From the NCBI RefSeq assembly GCF_036785885.1, contig NC_092320.1, forward strand, positions 13,331,557 through 13,395,556: a stretch of DNA of 64,000 nucleotides, given 5' to 3'. Positions 34,083-54,981 of the stretch are shown in pieces. The position numbers were made by a program, and so were the translations under genes. Position 1 is the stretch's first letter. Each line of letters begins with the position of its first letter. The notes under the pieces were generated by a model, which did no database searches, was not told where the DNA came from, and was given only the letters and a program-made list of their open reading frames with translations. The DNA is from Coffea arabica. Lineage: Eukaryota; Streptophyta; Magnoliopsida; Gentianales; Rubiaceae.

Positions 34083-37000
34083 ATGGCAAACCAGCCATCC
34101 CCCAGTGCAATTCTATGCGCTGCCTTCAATCAAGATAACAGGTAATCATCAAAAAAATTATTTGTCAGCTTAATTCTGATTAAGTTGGCATTATTCATTA
34201 AATTTCTTATTTTTTTTTGGCAGCTGCTTTGCTATTGGAACTAGGGATGGGTTCAGAATCTTTGATTCCAATACTGGCAGACTTCTTTATGAGAGAGGTT
34301 AAAGTTTCTATTTTTTCAATCAACTTTTATTGTGAATAATTTATTTTCAATTCAATAAAAGTGTGCAAGCTTGAATTTTTTTCCCTTTTTTGTCTATAAT
34401 AATATTCTGTTCTGGGTTGAAGATATTGATTGTCAGCTGATCAGGTTTTGTAATTTTTGGTGCTTTGTAGTTGATGACTAATGTATGGCATTTGATTAGA
34501 TCACTGGTTTAAGAAGGCAAATAAGAGTAGTGCATGCTTAAGATTTGATTCTTTAACTGCAGCGAGTCATTTTCTTCAAACTTTGATCATCCAAGGGTTT
34601 GATTCTCGGTCCAATTCTACAACGTCTACTTTCATTATTTGTTCTCGAAGTGGTTGAATTAGAAGACTATGGAAAATTTGTGAAAACTGCGTGCCTGAAC
34701 TGATTATTTTTAAAGAGGGTATGGGGAATTTGTAGTAATTTTATCCAAAATTTACAACTAGATGTACACAAAGAAGTATACTTACAAAAGTCAATTATGC
34801 TGCCTTTAAAAGCAAACTACTTAGAATTGCACTCTCTTATATTAAGAGTCTAAGCTTGACATTTCTTTCAAATTTTCTTGTAACATATTCTCCTGATTCT
34901 TTAACCTGATAGTCAAATCATGTTTCATGATAAAAAACCAAGCAACCCTATTGAAGTAGAACCTATACATAACTGCACATTGGTGTCTGGAATACATTGA
35001 TTCTATGGCACAGAGATATTTCATAATCAAGCATAAATATCTGTGGCAAGTCTTTACTGGGATGAGTAGAGATCTTTAATAAACACTTGTGCATGTAGAT
35101 TTTATTTTAGTTTGTGTCATATCCGTGATTATGAAGATCATCATGGATGTGACAACATGCCCAACTTATTTTATGTATTTTGAGATCTCTCATCCTCTCT
35201 TTGCTAGCTATTGGAGCTTTCATTGTAGTTGAAATGTTATTCAGCACAAGCCTTCTTTCCATTGTTGGGGCTGGTGAACAGGTTCTTGCAATTACTAGAT
35301 ATATTTTTTTTTCATTTTTGTGGAGAATATTAATACTAACAATTTCTGGTTGTTGCTTTCTTATGTTGCACCTAATTTCAACAGCCATCTTTATCCCCAC
35401 GGAGATTATGTTTGTTTAATACCAAGACTGGAGCTGCTCTCCGAGAACTAAACTTTCTGACTTCAATCCTTGCAGTTCGAATGAATAAGAAAAGGTAACA
35501 TATGACACAGGTCAGCTCTATTAATTTGCATCTGATTTTGTGTTTTTCCTATTTTGCATGTCTCCACCTGCATCTTCAAAATGGCATGGTTGCATATAGG
35601 CATCTTGGCTGGACTTTTTTGCCCTGAATTTGTGGTGATATTCTTCAAAAAGTTGAGGTTTTTATTGCCACAAATAGGAATAATGGTCTCCAACTTCATG
35701 TGTTCTGTTGCAAGTAAGCATCCTGAAGTTTTGTACTTTTTCCTTCACTGCTCCATTCCAACTTCTACTTTAGCATTCCAGTTAAAACTTGAAGGGGGAT
35801 TTTGCTGAGTCAGTGTAAAATTGATACCCTATTTTCCTTTCCTATAATGGTTCTAGTGTATTTCTGAATTTTTCATTGCCTTACCAAATAATTAGAGTCC
35901 ATGGAGACTGCAGTGGCCCGAGAAATTGTGGAGTAAGGGTACAGCTGATTGTGTTGTTTGTTTCACATGCTTTATATCAGTAGACACCACTTTGTCTGAT
36001 GTGAAAGAAGACTCACTTCCCCAATCTTTGAGAAACAAAGTCCTAAAGTCCTTTTGTCTTGTAGTTTTGGTGGTGTACCTTCATAGTTAGGACAATAAAA
36101 CGTGTTATTGTGGATTGGCTAGGAATGCACCACTGTTTCTTCTTAATTCTCCATTTGAATTCCAATTTCACTTAAATTCCATGCCATTTAATTCATCCTC
36201 TGTTAGCTTGATTACTGGCTAACTCTATCCACTTTTGTTTGGAAGTGCAATAGATTCTGCAAACTGAATTTGTTTCCTTTATGACAGTTTATGCTTGCTG
36301 CAACATGTGCGTTAGTTTATAAATTTTTACTATAAGAAGATATAATAAATATAGAGAACCTTTTAGTTACTGGTATTGTGTAGTTGGATCTTGTTTTCTC
36401 TAGATTAACTCTATCTTGCTCCATTCATTTGGATTCTTAATCTGAATGTCTGCGTGCTTTCCCTGAACTTAGAGCAGGAACAATGTCCTGACTATATGAC
36501 CTCCTGAACATGCCCACACTTTGCAAACTAGACAATCTATTACCTGGGAGGGGTGCATATGGATGACATTGGGTGAATTTCTTAGAGTATAATCATTGCA
36601 ATTTAGGTATTTTTGAAGCCACATACTATATCTTTAGTCAACTTCAAAAAGGGCAATACTGAGCAGTAGTATACTAGAAGCTTCTGTCTCCAAAAATCTA
36701 ACTTGTTTGCTGAATATTCTTTTCTGACTCTGAAAATGACTTTTTTGTAATCTTTTGTTCAATCAAGCTTTGTTATGTTCATTGAAATGTTTGCTTGGAA
36801 AATGCAGATTAGTAGTCGTTTTGCTTGAGAAGACCTACATATATGACATAAACAGTCTCCAGATATTGGACACAATAGATACTGTACCAAACTTAAAAGG
36901 TTGGTTCATAACATCCAATTTTCCGCTTGGGAAACATCAACATAAGCTTTTTTGTTGTGGCATTCTCAAATTGATTATATGATTTGTGAAATCTTTTTGT

Positions 37001-40000
37001 CCATCTTAAGTATTTGCTTTGATTAATGAGTCCTGCAGCATTTAAACTTTGTATTTCACTTCTGACCTTTAATTCTTTTGCTTTAGTAATAGCCATGTGA
37101 GTTTTTTTGTAATGGATAACAGATAATTATTGCACCATGAGGTTATTTAGATTATGCTTCAATTAGGTTCTTTGAGGAATACCTAGCAGTTAATAAAAGT
37201 GAACCATATTAGTCTGAATGTTTTTATTATTGATCTTATCATGTAGCATGCTCTACTGATTACACAAGTTTTTTTGAAGATTCTTTTACTATGCAGTTCA
37301 ATATCCCTAGTACCTTTTATAGTCACCATAACAAGAAGTTTTGTTTGTGAAGTACTTCCTTTTTTGGCCAAATGACAGGCATAAAAGAGAATAGCGAGAA
37401 TTCAGTCAAATCCTTAGTTCATGAGGGTGGTGGTGACACTGTCCAGTTTTCTCAACACAGTCACAACATGAAAATCATGTCCTGTTATCACCAAAGTTTA
37501 ATTAGTAATAAGTTCAAAACTTTTTCAACCAGTAACTCTAGAATCACACAAAGTGGACTAAGCAATTTATGGTGTTGTTATCATCATTGGTTTCAGACGC
37601 TGTTCCTCTCTTCCAAGTGACTAAAGACGCATCTGTTGCAATACTTAATAAGAATATAAGTGAAAAGGATCATTGGCACTACAAAGTAGGTTACTTATTT
37701 TTCATCTCTCGTTTCAGGACTTTGTGCATTTTCCCCAAGTTTAGATGGTTCCTTTTTGGCTTTTCCTGCTAGTATAACGAAGGGATCGGTTCTGGTCTAC
37801 AATGTAATGGAACTGCAATCCCACTGTGAGGTTGCATCCCTTATCCTCCTCCTTGTTGCTTGATTTCCGGATTTATTAGCTGGAACTACTAAATTGCTTT
37901 ATGATCACGATTTATCAGTATGGGAACTGTTAGTTTTCTTATCTAATAAAGAGCTTTGGCCTTTCCTTATCAACGACTGACAACAGATTAATATTTGTAC
38001 TTCTAGATGTCTTCATAGCATAGATGATCAATCTAAACCAAAATCTGACATTCTTGGAATTTTTGCTTGGTTGATGGCTCCATTCTTTTCGCTCTTCCAG
38101 CTGGGCAATGAATGTTAGAGAGCAACTATTTACCTGTATATCATCCAAGTACAAAACACATGCTAAAATTCCTTTGTAATAGGTGAATGTCAGTGGGTAA
38201 TGATCTGCACTAGATTAGTCTGAGAAGAATATTGATCTTAATAGTGAACCTACACTAAAAATGTTTATTTTTTGCTTGCCTTCTGTGACATTAATTCCAG
38301 TTGCACCAACAGCACAATTATTTTTTGCAGCTGGAGCATTGATATCGTTACCATTCTGAAGGAATTATAAGATTTTTTTTTACCAGTATTATAGGTGATT
38401 TTTAAAGACAGATAATGTCTATTAGTTAGTTGCTTCAGCAAAGTTTGGCTAAATGCAGATAGATGCTCATCGCTCACCTCTGGCTGCCATGGTCCTTTCT
38501 TCCAATGGAATGTACATAGCTACTGCATCAGAACAAGGGACCATAATCAGAGTTCATCTTGTCTCCGATGCAACTAAGGTGAAGTATCATAAATTTATTT
38601 ATACGGATGTTGAACAGTATCATTTTGCCGGACTTGAAAGTCTGTCTGCAAACTGTCACTACTACATCAGCGAAGGAACGAGAAGAGAGAGGAGGAAAGA
38701 GTGAAGAAAGAGAAGAGAGGCATGATGAGGAGGGAGAGAGTAATCTTGGGTGACTGGTGAGACGAGTATGTGAGAGAAATTATTACAGGAAGAAAATTCT
38801 AATGCGTCATATTCCATTTTTCAGCCACGAACTAAAGCCAGAATGCTGTAATGTTTGAATGGCAATAAGAGACAAAGAACTTTAAAACCTAAATTCTGAG
38901 AGTCAGCTAATTTATTCGTATCTGAAGATTTAGAACTCATGTTTTGTTGCATTTCTACCCTGTAAGGCAGAGAAGGGATGGTTTGAGGGAGGTGACAGTT
39001 TCATTTTTATTTGACATTAGTACTTCTGCATTTCTATCCAATGATTTAGAGCTTGATTCAGTTATTGATTCCTCATCAATGATATTTTGTCTAAATCTGG
39101 TTCCTGTTCGACCAAGGTGGACTGTAATTATAAAGACTTGAGCAAAAGAAAGAAAGAAAAGAAAAGAACATTACCTCATAGGTTACCCTGGATTCGTTCT
39201 TACTTTCCTTGTGGTTGCTAATTTTCTTTCTTGCATATGACCCAATTGTCTTACGCTGAGCAGTCGTACAGTTTCAGAAGGGGGACATATCCATCAAATA
39301 TTTTTTCCTTGTCCTTTAGTCCATCCACTGAACTGCCGGATATTCTTCTTGCCTCAAGCTCTTCTGGTTCTGTTCATGTGTTTTCTCTGGGATTTGCTCT
39401 GAATCACAGGTGAGAAATATCTACAAGTTATGCTGTACACTACATACCTTGTCATTCATTACATTGTTTTCTCACACCATGAATCCTGAATGTGTAAGAA
39501 ACCTGTTGACAAATCTGCTTTATGTGTGTTAAGTTCTGTTGTTCTTTTCCATTTTTTCCTTCTTTATCCCTTTGACATGTTATTGTTAGGAGAATATCAG
39601 TATTCTTGTAGATAATATTAGTAAGGGTATTCTTGTAAATGGTTAGTTAGATTTGTACTCGATATGTTGAGTGAAGTTGGGATATTAGGTTGCCGACCTG
39701 TGGATACTCCTATGGATCCCAATGTGAAATTAGTAGGAGATCAAGGTGCATTACTTGATCCTTGGCAATATCGAAGACTTGGGGGTAAATTAAATTATCT
39801 CACTGTAACGAGACCTGACATTTCGTTTGCAGTGAGTGTTGTGAGTCAATTTCTTGATACCTCTCGTACTAGTCATTGGGATGCTAGTATACGAATTCTC
39901 AGGTATCTTAAGAGTGCTCCTGGAAAAGGGTTGCTGTATCAAAATCATAGACACACTGATATTGAAGGATATAGTGATGCAGATTGGGTTGGTTCTGCCT

Positions 40001-43000
40001 CAGATCGAAGATCGACCATAGGATATTGTGTGTTTGTTGGTGGTAATTTAGTATCATGGAAGAGTAAGAAGCAAACAGTTATCTCCAGATCAAGTGCAGA
40101 ATCTGAATACCGCGCTATGGCTCACACTGTGTGTGAGTTGGTTTGGTTGAAGAGCATGTTACTTGAAATTGAGTTTGAGCATTAACAGCCTCTGAATTTA
40201 GTGTGTGATAATCAGGCGGCTGTCCATATTGCGTCTAATCCAGTGTTTCATGAAAAGACAAAACATATTGAAGTTGATTGTCACTTCATTCGAGAGAAAT
40301 TGCTTGACGGGGTCATCAAGACATCTCATGTACCGTCTGTAGATCAATTGGTTGATTTGTTTACCAAGAGTTTAGGGGGCTCTAGGGTGAAATACATTTG
40401 TAACAAGTTGGGTGCTTATGATATATATGTTCCAACTTGAGGGGGAGTGTTAGGAGAATATCAGTATTCTTGTAGATAATATTAGTAAGGGTATTCTTGT
40501 AAATGGTTGGTTAGGTTTGTACTCCTATAAATACTAGTTGGTCACTCATAATACAGTGATTAGATGTTTTCCTCCCAAGATACCTGTTGACAGTTATATT
40601 TAAACTTACTGTTGACAACCATATACTTTGTTAGCATGGCTAAATGATTGCTACCCCTTACTTGAATTGTTCTTTCTCTTGCTGTTTCCATCTTCCTCTG
40701 TCTACGCTACTTTTGGTTTATCTTCCTCTGTTTGCAGTGAGTGTTGTGAGTCAATTTCTTGATACCTCTCGTACTAGTCATTGGGATGCTATTATACGAA
40801 TTCTCAGGTATCTTAAGAGTGCTCCTGAAAAAGGGTTGCTGTATCAAAATCATGGACACACTGATATTGAAGGATATAGTGATGCAGATTGGGTTGGTTC
40901 TGCCTCAGATCGAAGATCGACCATAGGATATTGTGTGTTTGTTGGTGGTAATTTAGTATCATGGAAGAGTAAGAAGCAAACAGTTATCTCCAGATCAAGT
41001 GCAGAATCTGAATACCGCGCTATGGCTCACACTGTGTGTGAGTTGGTTTGGTTGAAGAGCATGTTACTTGAAATTGAGTTTGAGCATTAACAGCCTCTGA
41101 ATTTAGTGTGTGATAATCAGGCGGCTGTCCATATTGCGTCTAATCCAGTGTTTCATGAAAAGACAAAACATATTGAAGTTGATTGTCACTTCATTCGAGA
41201 GAAATTGCTTGACGGGGTCATCAAGACATCTCATGTACCGTCTGTAGATCAATTGGTTGATTTGTTTACCAAGAGTTTAGGGGGCTCTAGGGTGAAATAC
41301 ATTTGTAACAAGTTGGGTGCTTATGATATATATGTTCCAACTTGAGGGGGAGTGTTAGGAGAATATCAGTATTCTTGTAGATAATATTAGTAAGGGTATT
41401 CTTGTAAATGGTTGGTTAGGTTTGTACTCCTATAAATACTAGTTGGTCACTCATAATACAGTGATTAGATGTTTTCCTCCCAAGATACCTGTTGACAGTT
41501 ATATTTAAACTTACTGTTGACAACCATATACTTTGTTAGCATGGCTAAATGATTGCTACCCCTTACTTGAATTGTTCTTTCTCTTGCTGTTTCCATCTTC
41601 CTCTGTCTACGCTACTTTTGGTTTATCTTCCTCTGTTTGCAGTGAGTGTTGTGAGTCAATTTCTTGATACCTCTCGTACTAGTCATTGGGATGCTATTAT
41701 ACGAATTCTCAGGTATCTTAAGAGTGCTCCTGAAAAAGGGTTGCTGTATCAAAATCATGGACACACTGATATTGAAGGATATAGTGATGCAGATTGGGTT
41801 GGTTCTGCCTCAGATCGAAGATCGACCATAGGATATTGTGTGTTTGTTGGTGGTAATTTAGTATCATGGAAGAGTAAGAAGCAAACAGTTATCTCCAGAT
41901 CAAGTGCAGAATCTGAATACCGCGCTATGGCTCACACTGTGTGTGAGTTGGTTTGGTTGAAGAGCATGTTACTTGAAATTGAGTTTGAGCATTAACAGCC
42001 TCTGAATTTAGTGTGTGATAATCAGGCGGCTGTCCATATTGCGTCTAATCCAGTGTTTCATGAAAAGACAAAACATATTGAAGTTGATTGTCACTTCATT
42101 CGAGAGAAATTGCTTGACGGGGTCATCAAGACATCTCATGTACCGTCTGTAGATCAATTGGTTGATTTGTTTACCAAGAGTTTAGGGGGCTCTAGGGTGA
42201 AATACATTTGTAACAAGTTGGGTGCTTATGATATATATGTTCCAACTTGAGGGGGAGTGTTAGGAGAATATCAGTATTCTTGTAGATAATATTAGTAAGG
42301 GTATTCTTGTAAATGGTTGGTTAGGTTTGTACTCCTATAAATACTAGTTGGTCACTCATAATACAGTGATTAGATGTTTTCCTCCCAAGATACCTGTTGA
42401 CAGTTATATTTAAACTTACTGTTGACAACCATATACTTTGTTAGCATGGCTAAATGATTGCTACCCCTTACTTGAATTGTTCTTTCTCTTGCTGTTTCCA
42501 TCTTCCTCTGTCTACGCTACTTTTGGTTTATCTGGCCTCTTGAGTTTCCTTGCAGTTCAAGAGCTATATATGTTGTGCGTCTTTGAATAATATGTCAGCC
42601 TTGTATTGTTATCTTTAGTCAGATGTAGCTGGTAGTTGAAACTGTCAAATAACCTGATCTATTTTGTATTTCCTTTTGTACAGAAGCAGGAGATCAAATA
42701 CTTTTCTTGGGTCCATAGTACCTGATTCTGTAACTGATGTACTGGATTCTGCTTATCACCATGTACTTCATCATGCTGTCCCAGCTGGAGTTAAAAGGTC
42801 TAGTAGATATTAATTTGTATATCAACCATCTTACTATAGTTTCTTCATCATTTAGCAATATTCTATGGCTGTGGTTAGACTAGGTTTTCTGGTAGCAGAC
42901 TATTTTGACAACATTTTGATTAGACTCAAGTCACCCACTTCATAGATTGTAGTAGCACTGTTAGATTATATAACTTTTCTTTTAATACCTAAAAGGATGA

Positions 43001-44507: not shown

Positions 44508-46340
44508 TGTGCACTTTACTCATCCGCAGGCTTTGCTTTAAAGGGACAGCTTGAAACTGGAGCTTGTGGTTCCTCGCTGACACTTTGGCTTTTAACTCAA
44601 AGTAGAATACAAGGGTACACTGGCTAATGAGTTAAGATACCTGTTGCCAACCTTTAGGAACATCTAGATGGTTAAGATACCTGTTGCCAACCTTTATGAC
44701 CAGGGTATATGTTTGACATCATATGGTCTTTGATCGCTCTCACTTGACCTCCATAAACTATAGCATTTTCCTTCCTACTTGTAGTTGTAGGTAGCAAGTT
44801 TGTATGTGTGAAACTCCGCGTGCCATTTTATATCCTCACACTGATGAAGATATAATTCTTCTTTGTATTGTGTAAAACACAATTTTTATGATGTAATATA
44901 TATATATATACCTTGTGTATTTCTGCATTTGATTTTCTTCCCTGGGTAAGGATATAAATAATCTTATTATGACTTGGTTAATGAGTTTCCATCTGGCACT
45001 CTATGTTTATATATATTATATATGTGAAAGTTGTAATTAATTTTAAAAAGTATCTAAATGCAGAAAATGCAATAATTTAAATATGATAAGTTAAATATAA
45101 TTTAAGTATAATAACAAGTGTTCACTTGGCCTGTGTTTACTTTTATCTACCTTCGTTTCAATTCTCCGGCTCAGTATATTGCAGGATAGATCTGCCAGTG
45201 AATATCTTTTTTGCCTCTTTTATGTTTTAAGCCTGTTTCAGTATACAAGTGGTGCATTTGTTCACTAGTAAATAAAGGCATAAATTCGATAGGCACTTGC
45301 GAAAACCAGCTCCTTTGTGTTGCGTGGAGTTGCATGCCCAGAAATTGCACGAGTAACATGGATGAAACTTGCAGTGAGTCCATCAAACGCAGTTCTCTCT
45401 GCCTAAAAGTTAATTCAAAAAAACAAAAAATGCAGCTCTCTCTGCATATTAATATTAATGTGTGCGTTGTTTTTTCATACTCTTTTATGACTCTGCAAAA
45501 TCTTTGCTGTGATAGAACAGCTGATTGAAGAAAAGGCAAACCAGTATTGTAATATCACTCTTTTCTTTTCTTTTTTTTTTCTCGGGTGGGAGTCCGCACA
45601 GTATTTTAAACACTTTGATGGTTCTCAATTATGCAAAAACTAAGCACCATAGTCATCAAAGCAAACATATGTTAGATGTTTAAACTTCCAGATTACACCA
45701 AAAAGCAGTTTTTTTCCTTCTTGCCCTTCACCAAGTTTCAATTCATCCACAATTGTTCCTCAATATTACCTTCAATAACTTGCAACATACAATTTCATGC
45801 CAACTTCCAGTCCATTGAAACGTTCTCCTCTTTTTCAGTTATACAGAGAGTCGTGTCGTCGCTGGACTCGTAATTTTGCACTTTTTGGGGCAGCAAGAGT
45901 AGGCTACCTCTTACTTTCACTTTCTTAGATTTCATGTTTTCTGTTGGATGAGAATTTCACAATGTCTAAAAGCTTTGGACATCGACGAAACGAACTACCA
46001 ATTAGCTCAGCAAGTACTGAACCAAAGACTTGTTGATTTGCGCCAATTAGGCGATTTTTTAGAAAAGTATCTTAAATCTCTTATTTATAATTTCTGCAGT
46101 AATAGGACCGAGAAATGGGGTTTAATTTTTTTTCAAACCCTCTGATCAGCCTTCTATCTTTTTACAGCAAAAGCACCAAAAGACTGTCGAACCATCCTTC
46201 CAAGATACAAAACATTCCCATCTCTTAAACAGAAAACGTTGATCCGTGAGATCTCAGCATGCCAAGAGATGGAGATTTTGGTTTATAAGTCTTGAAACAT
46301 AAACTTCGGTTAATAGCCACACATCCCATCTCAGTCTAGA
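44508..46340. other. ATG18b 3' UTR and convergent intergenic space
   Basis: The ATG18b 3' end and the minus-strand TMEM208-like gene converge here. A TA tract lies near 44898-44912. Open frames of 65-122 codons on both strands show no recognised domain and are not called. Confidence 0.5.
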
Positions 46341-53604: not shown

Positions 53605-53991
53605 TGTCTTTTTCCGATGACTGAGAAACTCAGACTTTTTCGTTACTAAAGTTGACCTGCGAGAAACCTTCAAAAGCCGGCAACTTTTGAAGGCTCCCGC
53701 AGACCTTAATAAACCCAAACCCCAAACCCCCCCGAACCGATGTGGGATAGAAACCCCACAGGGGTGCCCCGCTGCTAAGAAGTAAAGACCCCCCAGACAC
53801 CCACTGAAATGGAGAGATCACCTCCCCGAGGTTTCTGTCTTTTTCCGATGACTGAGAAACTCAGACTTTTTCGTTACTAAAGTTGACCTGCGAGAAACCT
53901 TCAAAAGCCGGCAACTTTTGAAGGCTCCCGCAGACCTTAATAAACCCAAACCCCAAACCCCCCCGAACCGATGTGGGATAGAAACCCCACA
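53605..53991. mobile_element. TRIM-like LTR element, 387 bp, two identical 156-bp repeats
   Basis: Two direct repeats, 53605-53760 and 53836-53991, appear identical by eye. Each starts TG (TGTCTTTTTCCGATGAC) and ends CA (GAAACCCCACA), as LTRs do. Read on the minus strand each begins TGTGGGGTTTCTATCCCACA, similar to starts of several plant LTRs. Only 75 bases lie between them, with no coding capacity, as in terminal-repeat retrotransposons in miniature. The flanks carry AGTAGGTGAAAGTG on both sides and a further copy near 54036, so I cannot show a clean 5-bp target duplication. Identity of the repeats implies recent insertion or recent duplication. Orientation and primer site are undecided. 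Confidence 0.65.
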
Positions 53992-54981
53992 GGGGAGTAG
54001 GTAGGTGAAAGTGTCGTTTGTTGAAAAAAAGAAAAAGTAGGTGAAAGTGAGGGCCCTCCTTAAAAAAAAAAAGAAAAGAAAAAGGTGAGGGTCCACTTTT
54101 GGAGGTTGGGATGGTTTTTTACCGCGTCATAACGTCTCTTTCTCCAATTCGAGCAAACAAAAATTTGCCTCCTCGTTTCCTGGAATTTATTGTGCTTCTC
54201 TTTCCTTCCAACAGAAAATGGTCAAGTCATCTACACCTCAGAAAAAATTAAGCAATAAATAACTAGAAAGAAGAAAGAATACGCCAAAGAGATAAATTTA
54301 AGAGAATTTCTCTTTCTTTCTTTTCCCATCCCAAGCTTTTTTATAGTTGCATAAACACGTGCATGTGTGTGCAGCTGTGTGTATGATGTCAAATTTGAGT
54401 GAAAAAGAATAATCCAGTCTTTGAATTCATTTGTTTTTACACCTGGGTTTTGCTCAGTTTATCTAATCAGGTGTGTTCATTGACCTTCTCTCTCTGTCTC
54501 TTTAATCTTTTTGACCAGGGACGATTGTATGCAAAAGACGTGATTCTTGTTTTTTTTCCGCCTCTAATTGGATATTGGATGTAACATGTTAATTGGGATG
54601 ATGAGATTGTTGATGCTTTCGATATTCTTTCTGTTTTATCGTCTGAAGAATCTGAGATTTCTTTGTGCCCATTATGAGTGGTTAATGACTGCAGTCGATG
54701 GTGTTTGTATAATGGTAGTGTTAGTTGATGGATTACTGTTTTCGAACTTGATGGTAGGGAAATGTCGTTTTTCTTTAATCCAATAAAGTAGATGCTACAG
54801 TAAAAAAGTTTGTCTTTTTATGATCCTTTAAAGTGGGAATATTCTGATTGCAATGTATCATTTCTCTCACGGCAACTTGATTCAGCTCTGAGGTGAAATT
54901 CAGGGACTTTTGACTCTTTCCTTAGCAAAATTGGACTCGCAGCTATCCCCTATTTTGCTTTACTTGAGTTCTGATTTGGAG

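Follow-up and report, generated by a model that had tools for sequence, protein, structure and literature searches.

A three-unit tandem repeat spanning the border of a copia remnant and its host intron in an ATG18-family gene of Coffea arabica

How does an intron come to hold, head to tail, three copies of a segment that is itself part retrotransposon and part intron? The question is raised by a stretch of Coffea arabica DNA 64,000 nucleotides in length (NC_092320.1, positions 13,331,557 to 13,395,556 of the forward strand), which is called here the window, and positions within it are given without further prefix. The window comes from contig C11, with its homeologous locus found on C12, where the flanks are about 98% identical. 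An intron of an ATG18-family gene (39410-42683, plus strand, as are all features described) is 3274 bp on C11 versus 450 bp in the C12 homeolog, and the C11 intron carries a shortened Ty1/copia element, the 3' end of which is repeated along with a piece of adjoining intron. The reading that we favor, at a probability of roughly 0.72, is that of a copia insertion, followed by tandem duplication via break repair, followed in turn by an unequal exchange supplying the third unit.

The array, its element, and the empty site

Comparison of the window with itself yields a repeat with a period of exactly 905 bp, that is, three head-to-tail units spanning 39825-42533. The self-match begins at 39825 and the third unit stops at 42533, after which the host intron is unbroken. 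In each unit the 3' end of the element is followed by GTTAT, the target duplication, and then by 126 bp of sequence from the host intron. Within unit 1 (U1; 39825-40729) are found, in order, the end of pol, a polypurine tract, the 3' long terminal repeat (LTR; 40448-40592), GTTAT (40593-40597), host sequence (40598-40723), and six join bases (40724-40729). Unit 2 (U2; 40730-41634) is likewise 905 bp, while unit 3 (U3; 41635-42533) is 899 bp and is without the six bases added at the join. Differences between U1 and the other two are confined to 39887, 39923, and 39949, and U2 equals U3 across all 899 bases that they have in common. An initial annotation of this DNA had described just such a 905-bp tandem triplication, with units 2 and 3 identical and unit 1 slightly different, and the period, the three units, and the zero versus three differences all agree with it.

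The element itself begins after a left GTTAT copy (39579-39583). The first 77 bp of its 5' LTR (39584-39660) are fused, via a 7-bp TGTACTC common to both sides, to internal pol (39661-39824, upstream of the repeated part and recognized by its sister matches), with this fusion read by comparison with four sister copies, in both their LTRs and their internal parts. Window bases 39651-39830 match all 17 of 17 sister loci at 91-96%. The window's 3' LTR is 145 bp with TG...CA ends, and the sister copies examined have LTRs of 146 or 147 bp and matching 5-bp target duplications (6/6). As pol from a sister copy (L012:602-1318, lying upstream of the common part) matches RVT_2 (PF07727, E 4.5e-72), the family is Ty1/copia. 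Neither of the two pol pieces remaining in the window matches a Pfam family at E 0.1; the copy is without most of the copia reverse transcriptase part, and the pol end is presumably RNase H. That a shortened copia insertion is present, as was first proposed, is borne out by the 77-bp LTR remnant, the missing internal part, and the GTTAT copies.

A deletion derivative common to the family, and spread as such, was considered and rejected: the exact LTR-internal fusion string occurs once in the genome, though a search by exact strings misses diverged relatives. Separately, one sister copy (L012:2-2116, on C18) has a 704-codon open frame across pol, and sister pairs in the alignment are about 95-99% alike. 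Because of that open frame and that likeness, the genome may have acquired or amplified this family not long ago.

The C12 homeolog represents an empty site. Its intron holds a single GTTAT (C12:11967942-11967946) and no element, with the layout there being left flank, GTTAT, the 126 host bases (three differences), and then right flank. The difference in intron length, 3274-450 = 2824 bp, is that of the element (1009 bp) plus one GTTAT (5 bp) plus two extra units (1810 bp). Two GTTAT copies, at 39579-39583 and 40593-40597, versus one on C12 is what a target duplication flanking the insertion should look like, as had been claimed. A search with the 126 bp finds four places, i.e., the three units on C11 and one on C12. 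As matches are found only in the units and at the empty site, these bases are host intron rather than element, just as the initial annotation held, and an origin with the element is ruled out by the C12 host match. With the empty site having one GTTAT, insertion therefore came first and duplication later. The further claim that copying followed insertion, rather than being a product of transposition, accordingly holds, given that the units contain host intron and that the empty site exists.

Divergence between the homeologs local to the locus is 64 of 5076 aligned bases to the left and 21 of 2088 to the right. Across the larger comparison (window versus C12:11922000-11991999) identity is uneven, i.e., 98.5% over 34147-39583 within the ATG18 gene and about 87-96%, with gaps, over other collinear stretches. 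Differences between the C. arabica subgenomes are described as largely or abundantly ones of transposable-element presence versus absence (PMC10805892).

Order and age of the units

To which unit does each difference belong? The three units were aligned with 17 sister copies, these being 17 loci out of 39 sister matches listed, with 40 of 1081 candidates scored. At 39887 and 39949 all 17 sisters have the U2/U3 base, and it is U1 that is derived; at 39923 all 17 have the U1 base, and U2 and U3 are derived. Bases private to this locus at 39862 and 39886 (0/17 sisters) and at 39894 (1/17) are present in all three units. As these private bases are common to every unit, the 5' part of U2 and U3 was copied locally, and an ectopic genomic template for that part is ruled out. 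The simplest order that fits these polarized bases would be insertion, tandem duplication, and mutation, with an unequal homologous exchange adding the third unit last.

Substitution rates are taken here, from general background, as 1.3e-8 and 7e-9 per site per year. At these rates the U1 versus U2 divergence (3/905) corresponds, respectively, to 127 thousand years (kyr; 26-373) or 237 kyr (49-692). The lack of differences over 899 bp sets an upper bound on the U2/U3 split of 128 or 238 kyr. The LTR pair (2/77) corresponds to 1.0 million years (Myr; 0.12-3.6) or 1.9 Myr (0.22-6.7). The initial annotation had the expansion as probably very recent or ongoing, which is not supported, as two units that agree over 899 bp could have split up to about 0.13-0.24 Myr ago. 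Allopolyploidy of C. arabica has been dated to 350-610 kyr, with the same account reporting no major evidence of LTR-element mobilization afterward (PMC11018527). The duplication may have come before or after that allopolyploidy.

The joins and the origin of the array

The two joins (40720-40737 and 41625-41642) are identical. Each consists of host ATCT (the end of TTTATCT), then six extra bases, TCCTCT, and then the first bases of the repeated element part, GTTTGCAG, and each is acceptor-like. The join string, TTTATCTTCCTCTGTTTGCAG, has exactly two occurrences in the genome, both at this array. A 12-mer, ATCTTCCTCTGT, identical to 40720-40731, recurs 30 bp upstream, within the host piece (40690-40701), and is the probable donor of a templated join sequence. 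When the 126-bp host piece was shuffled 20000 times with its dinucleotides preserved, one shuffle contained this 12-mer, a significant result. What is found, that is, is a local head-to-tail copy with microhomology and a templated insertion at its join. The suggestion that TCCTCTG at the joins copies a nearby motif is upheld by the upstream 12-mer, and that of template switching or microhomology repair is broadly right.

Templated insertions are described as a hallmark of polymerase theta, and tandem duplications in nematodes have been tied to the polymerase theta pathway (PMC7368036). For plants, which are reported not to encode HELQ, the majority of theta-mediated outcomes are said to have templated insertions, often patchwork (PMC8654963). 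In rice, as presented in PMC7971508, the share of tandem duplications among events declines to about 5% at 200 bp and holds that level out to 15 kb, with the longest perfect one being 4.9 kb.

The favored sequence of events would run as follows. A Ty1/copia element would have inserted, in sense orientation, into the 450-bp ATG18-family intron of one homeolog, with the empty site pointing to a time after the lineages split. The element lacks most of its internal sequence, with the 7-bp microhomology at the fusion, through a deletion that may date from reverse transcription or from after insertion. A break, or instead paired nicks, could then have given rise to an 899-bp tandem duplication extending from inside pol to 126 bp past the insertion, with repair priming on ATCT about 30 bp back, copying TCCTCT, and rejoining at GT. 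From the look of the join, that repair would be of a polymerase-theta type or a form of patch repair. Once some mutations had accumulated, the near-identical units would have recombined, by unequal crossing-over or some comparable homologous exchange, which would have supplied the third unit and copied the U2 state at 39923 into it, as the one common derived base suggests.

Several points weigh against this scheme. The six join bases, taken alone, occur in 2110 of the 20000 shuffles and would not be significant, so that the case for templating depends on the matching bases to either side. The repair enzymes are not identifiable from sequence. The order of events has slender backing in a single common derived base. 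Lastly, all three sites at which the units differ are clustered in 63 bp (P about 0.014 under a uniform distribution), which is not predicted by simple mutation. Such clustering might result from gene conversion over the rest of the units.

Could all of the units instead have been made at once, by a single replication-based event, i.e., fork stalling and template switching or microhomology-mediated break-induced replication? The two joins are identical, as such an event would have it, and short microhomologies along with a templated insertion are as much to be expected of template switching as of end joining. The derived base at 39923 that U2 and U3 have in common, together with the two bases derived in U1, nevertheless suggests that U1 and U2 split earlier, unless gene conversion intervened, and we consider a single event to be unlikely. 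A good deal less credible is an assembly artefact, with the real locus having one or two units. U2 and U3 are identical, and the basis here is assembly sequence rather than reads, but three sites set U1 apart from the other units. In addition, if the assembly is the published C. arabica HiFi assembly, then the plant was di-haploid (PMC11018527). In that case the array, at 2.7 kb, would also be much shorter than typical HiFi reads.

The host gene, possible effects, and relation to known systems

The exon upstream of the intron (39265-39409) ends with ...FALNH plus the AG of a split codon, and the downstream exon is 42684-42797; the 5' boundary of the former and the 3' boundary of the latter were set by eye. 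The joined exons of the host gene match the PROPPIN beta-propeller (PF21032, E 3e-38) as well as Atg18 and WIPI chains in the Protein Data Bank (PDB), which supports, at the level of family, the initial naming of the gene as ATG18. The seven matches of a genome-wide PROPPIN search are spread over C2, C3, and C4, with C11 having none, and such a search is capable of missing genes that are split into small exons; none of 14 control genomes matched. Between C11 and C12, four exons compared around and after the intron have one, one, one, and two base differences, and no change in length. No structured RNA was found by Rfam at gathering scores within 39400-42700.

As to other repeats, a megablast self-comparison (matches of at least 80 bp) found no other abutting tandem pairs in the 64-kb window, nor any in 69.5 kb of homeologous sequence, with non-abutting pairs present in both. 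The array is not listed by TRF, for which the longest period was 500. Direct repeats at 53605-53764 and 53836-53995 are 160 bp each, 100% identical, and 71 bp apart, possibly representing a small terminal-repeat element. The homeologous stretch has a roughly 151-bp repeat pair near C12:11982315 (97% identical, offset 257), and an imperfect 32-bp direct repeat (94%, spacing 40) lies at 44631-44702, downstream of the last ATG18 exon.

What might the array do to transcripts? Among the intron's 102 YAG sites the two joins have the highest pyrimidine content, at 12/15, though this is a crude score that takes in neither a branch point nor a trained matrix. The true acceptor scores 11/15, tied with two other sites, and the original U1 site 10/15. 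That the joins recreate an acceptor-like motif two extra times, as the initial annotation had it, is correct for these two identical joins. Were the donor at 39409 spliced to one of the three TTTGCAG sites, whichever it was, the predicted reading would be SECCESIS and then a stop. Each unit also has one TATAAATA, in the LTR. The predicted effects are that the intron is lengthened, that it has three LTRs in sense orientation, and that it gains two acceptor-like sites which, if used, would end the frame after eight codons.

It might be argued that the array has been kept for its tuning of ATG18 splicing or of transcript ending. Join rank and the TATAAATA in each unit are compatible with such a role, and in Arabidopsis epigenetic mutants transcripts are reported to end early inside some intronic elements (PMC10241880). 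The U1 site is older than the duplication, however, and there is no AATAAA in the intron. Retention for this purpose is very improbable; most likely the array has no adaptive role. It is also conceivable, as a long shot, that unit number (one, two, three, or more) is still segregating in Arabica coffee, with the join-made acceptors causing one ATG18 homeolog to yield more truncated transcripts the more units it has.

Several known systems resemble this locus. Vaughn and Bennetzen (2014) and Schiml et al. (2016) reportedly address tandem duplication by break repair in plants. The break-repair duplications of rice (PMC7971508) are alike in being local head-to-tail copies with short microhomology, with a templated insertion in addition here, but their main size class is below 125-200 bp, versus 899-905 bp plus a third unit in this case. 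The tandem LTR-retrotransposon arrays of Morales-Diaz et al. (2025; PMC11899658) similarly have several LTRs alternating with internal sequence at one insertion. In those arrays, as described, target duplications flank the LTRs and internal regions, whereas here GTTAT and 126 bp of host DNA lie within each unit, rather than LTR and internal sequence alone. Tandem retrotransposition, that is, insertion of a multi-unit LTR element or read-through product as such, is consequently refuted even though such arrays are reported to be frequent in plants (PMC11899658), as the start of every unit lies within pol and no unit is without the target duplication and the 126 bp taken from the local intron.

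Retrotransposon-derived satellites (Vondrak et al., 2019; PMC7004042) are alike in that their tandem units come from part of an LTR element. A satellite is a long array of many units, however, and here there are three, at one genic locus, with a unit that spans the element-host border and a host piece found elsewhere only at the empty site. The Arabidopsis intronic LTR elements that alter transcript ends (PMC10241880) include, as here, a sense copia remnant in an intron, though the present element is partly triplicated and is known from sequence alone. Among titles and abstract openings in the open-access literature we found none on this locus, nor any paper on Coffea with ATG18b.

The locus is a tidy case of known processes, and no general view is changed by it. 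It is, that is, a well-resolved example of a retrotransposon insertion seeding a tandem repeat that carries host intron along with it. The order of insertion, duplication, and triplication is readable from polarized mutations because the empty 450-bp homeolog intron and many sister copies survive. The array thereby provides a concrete locus for the birth of a tandem repeat, and for intron growth, in an allotetraploid.

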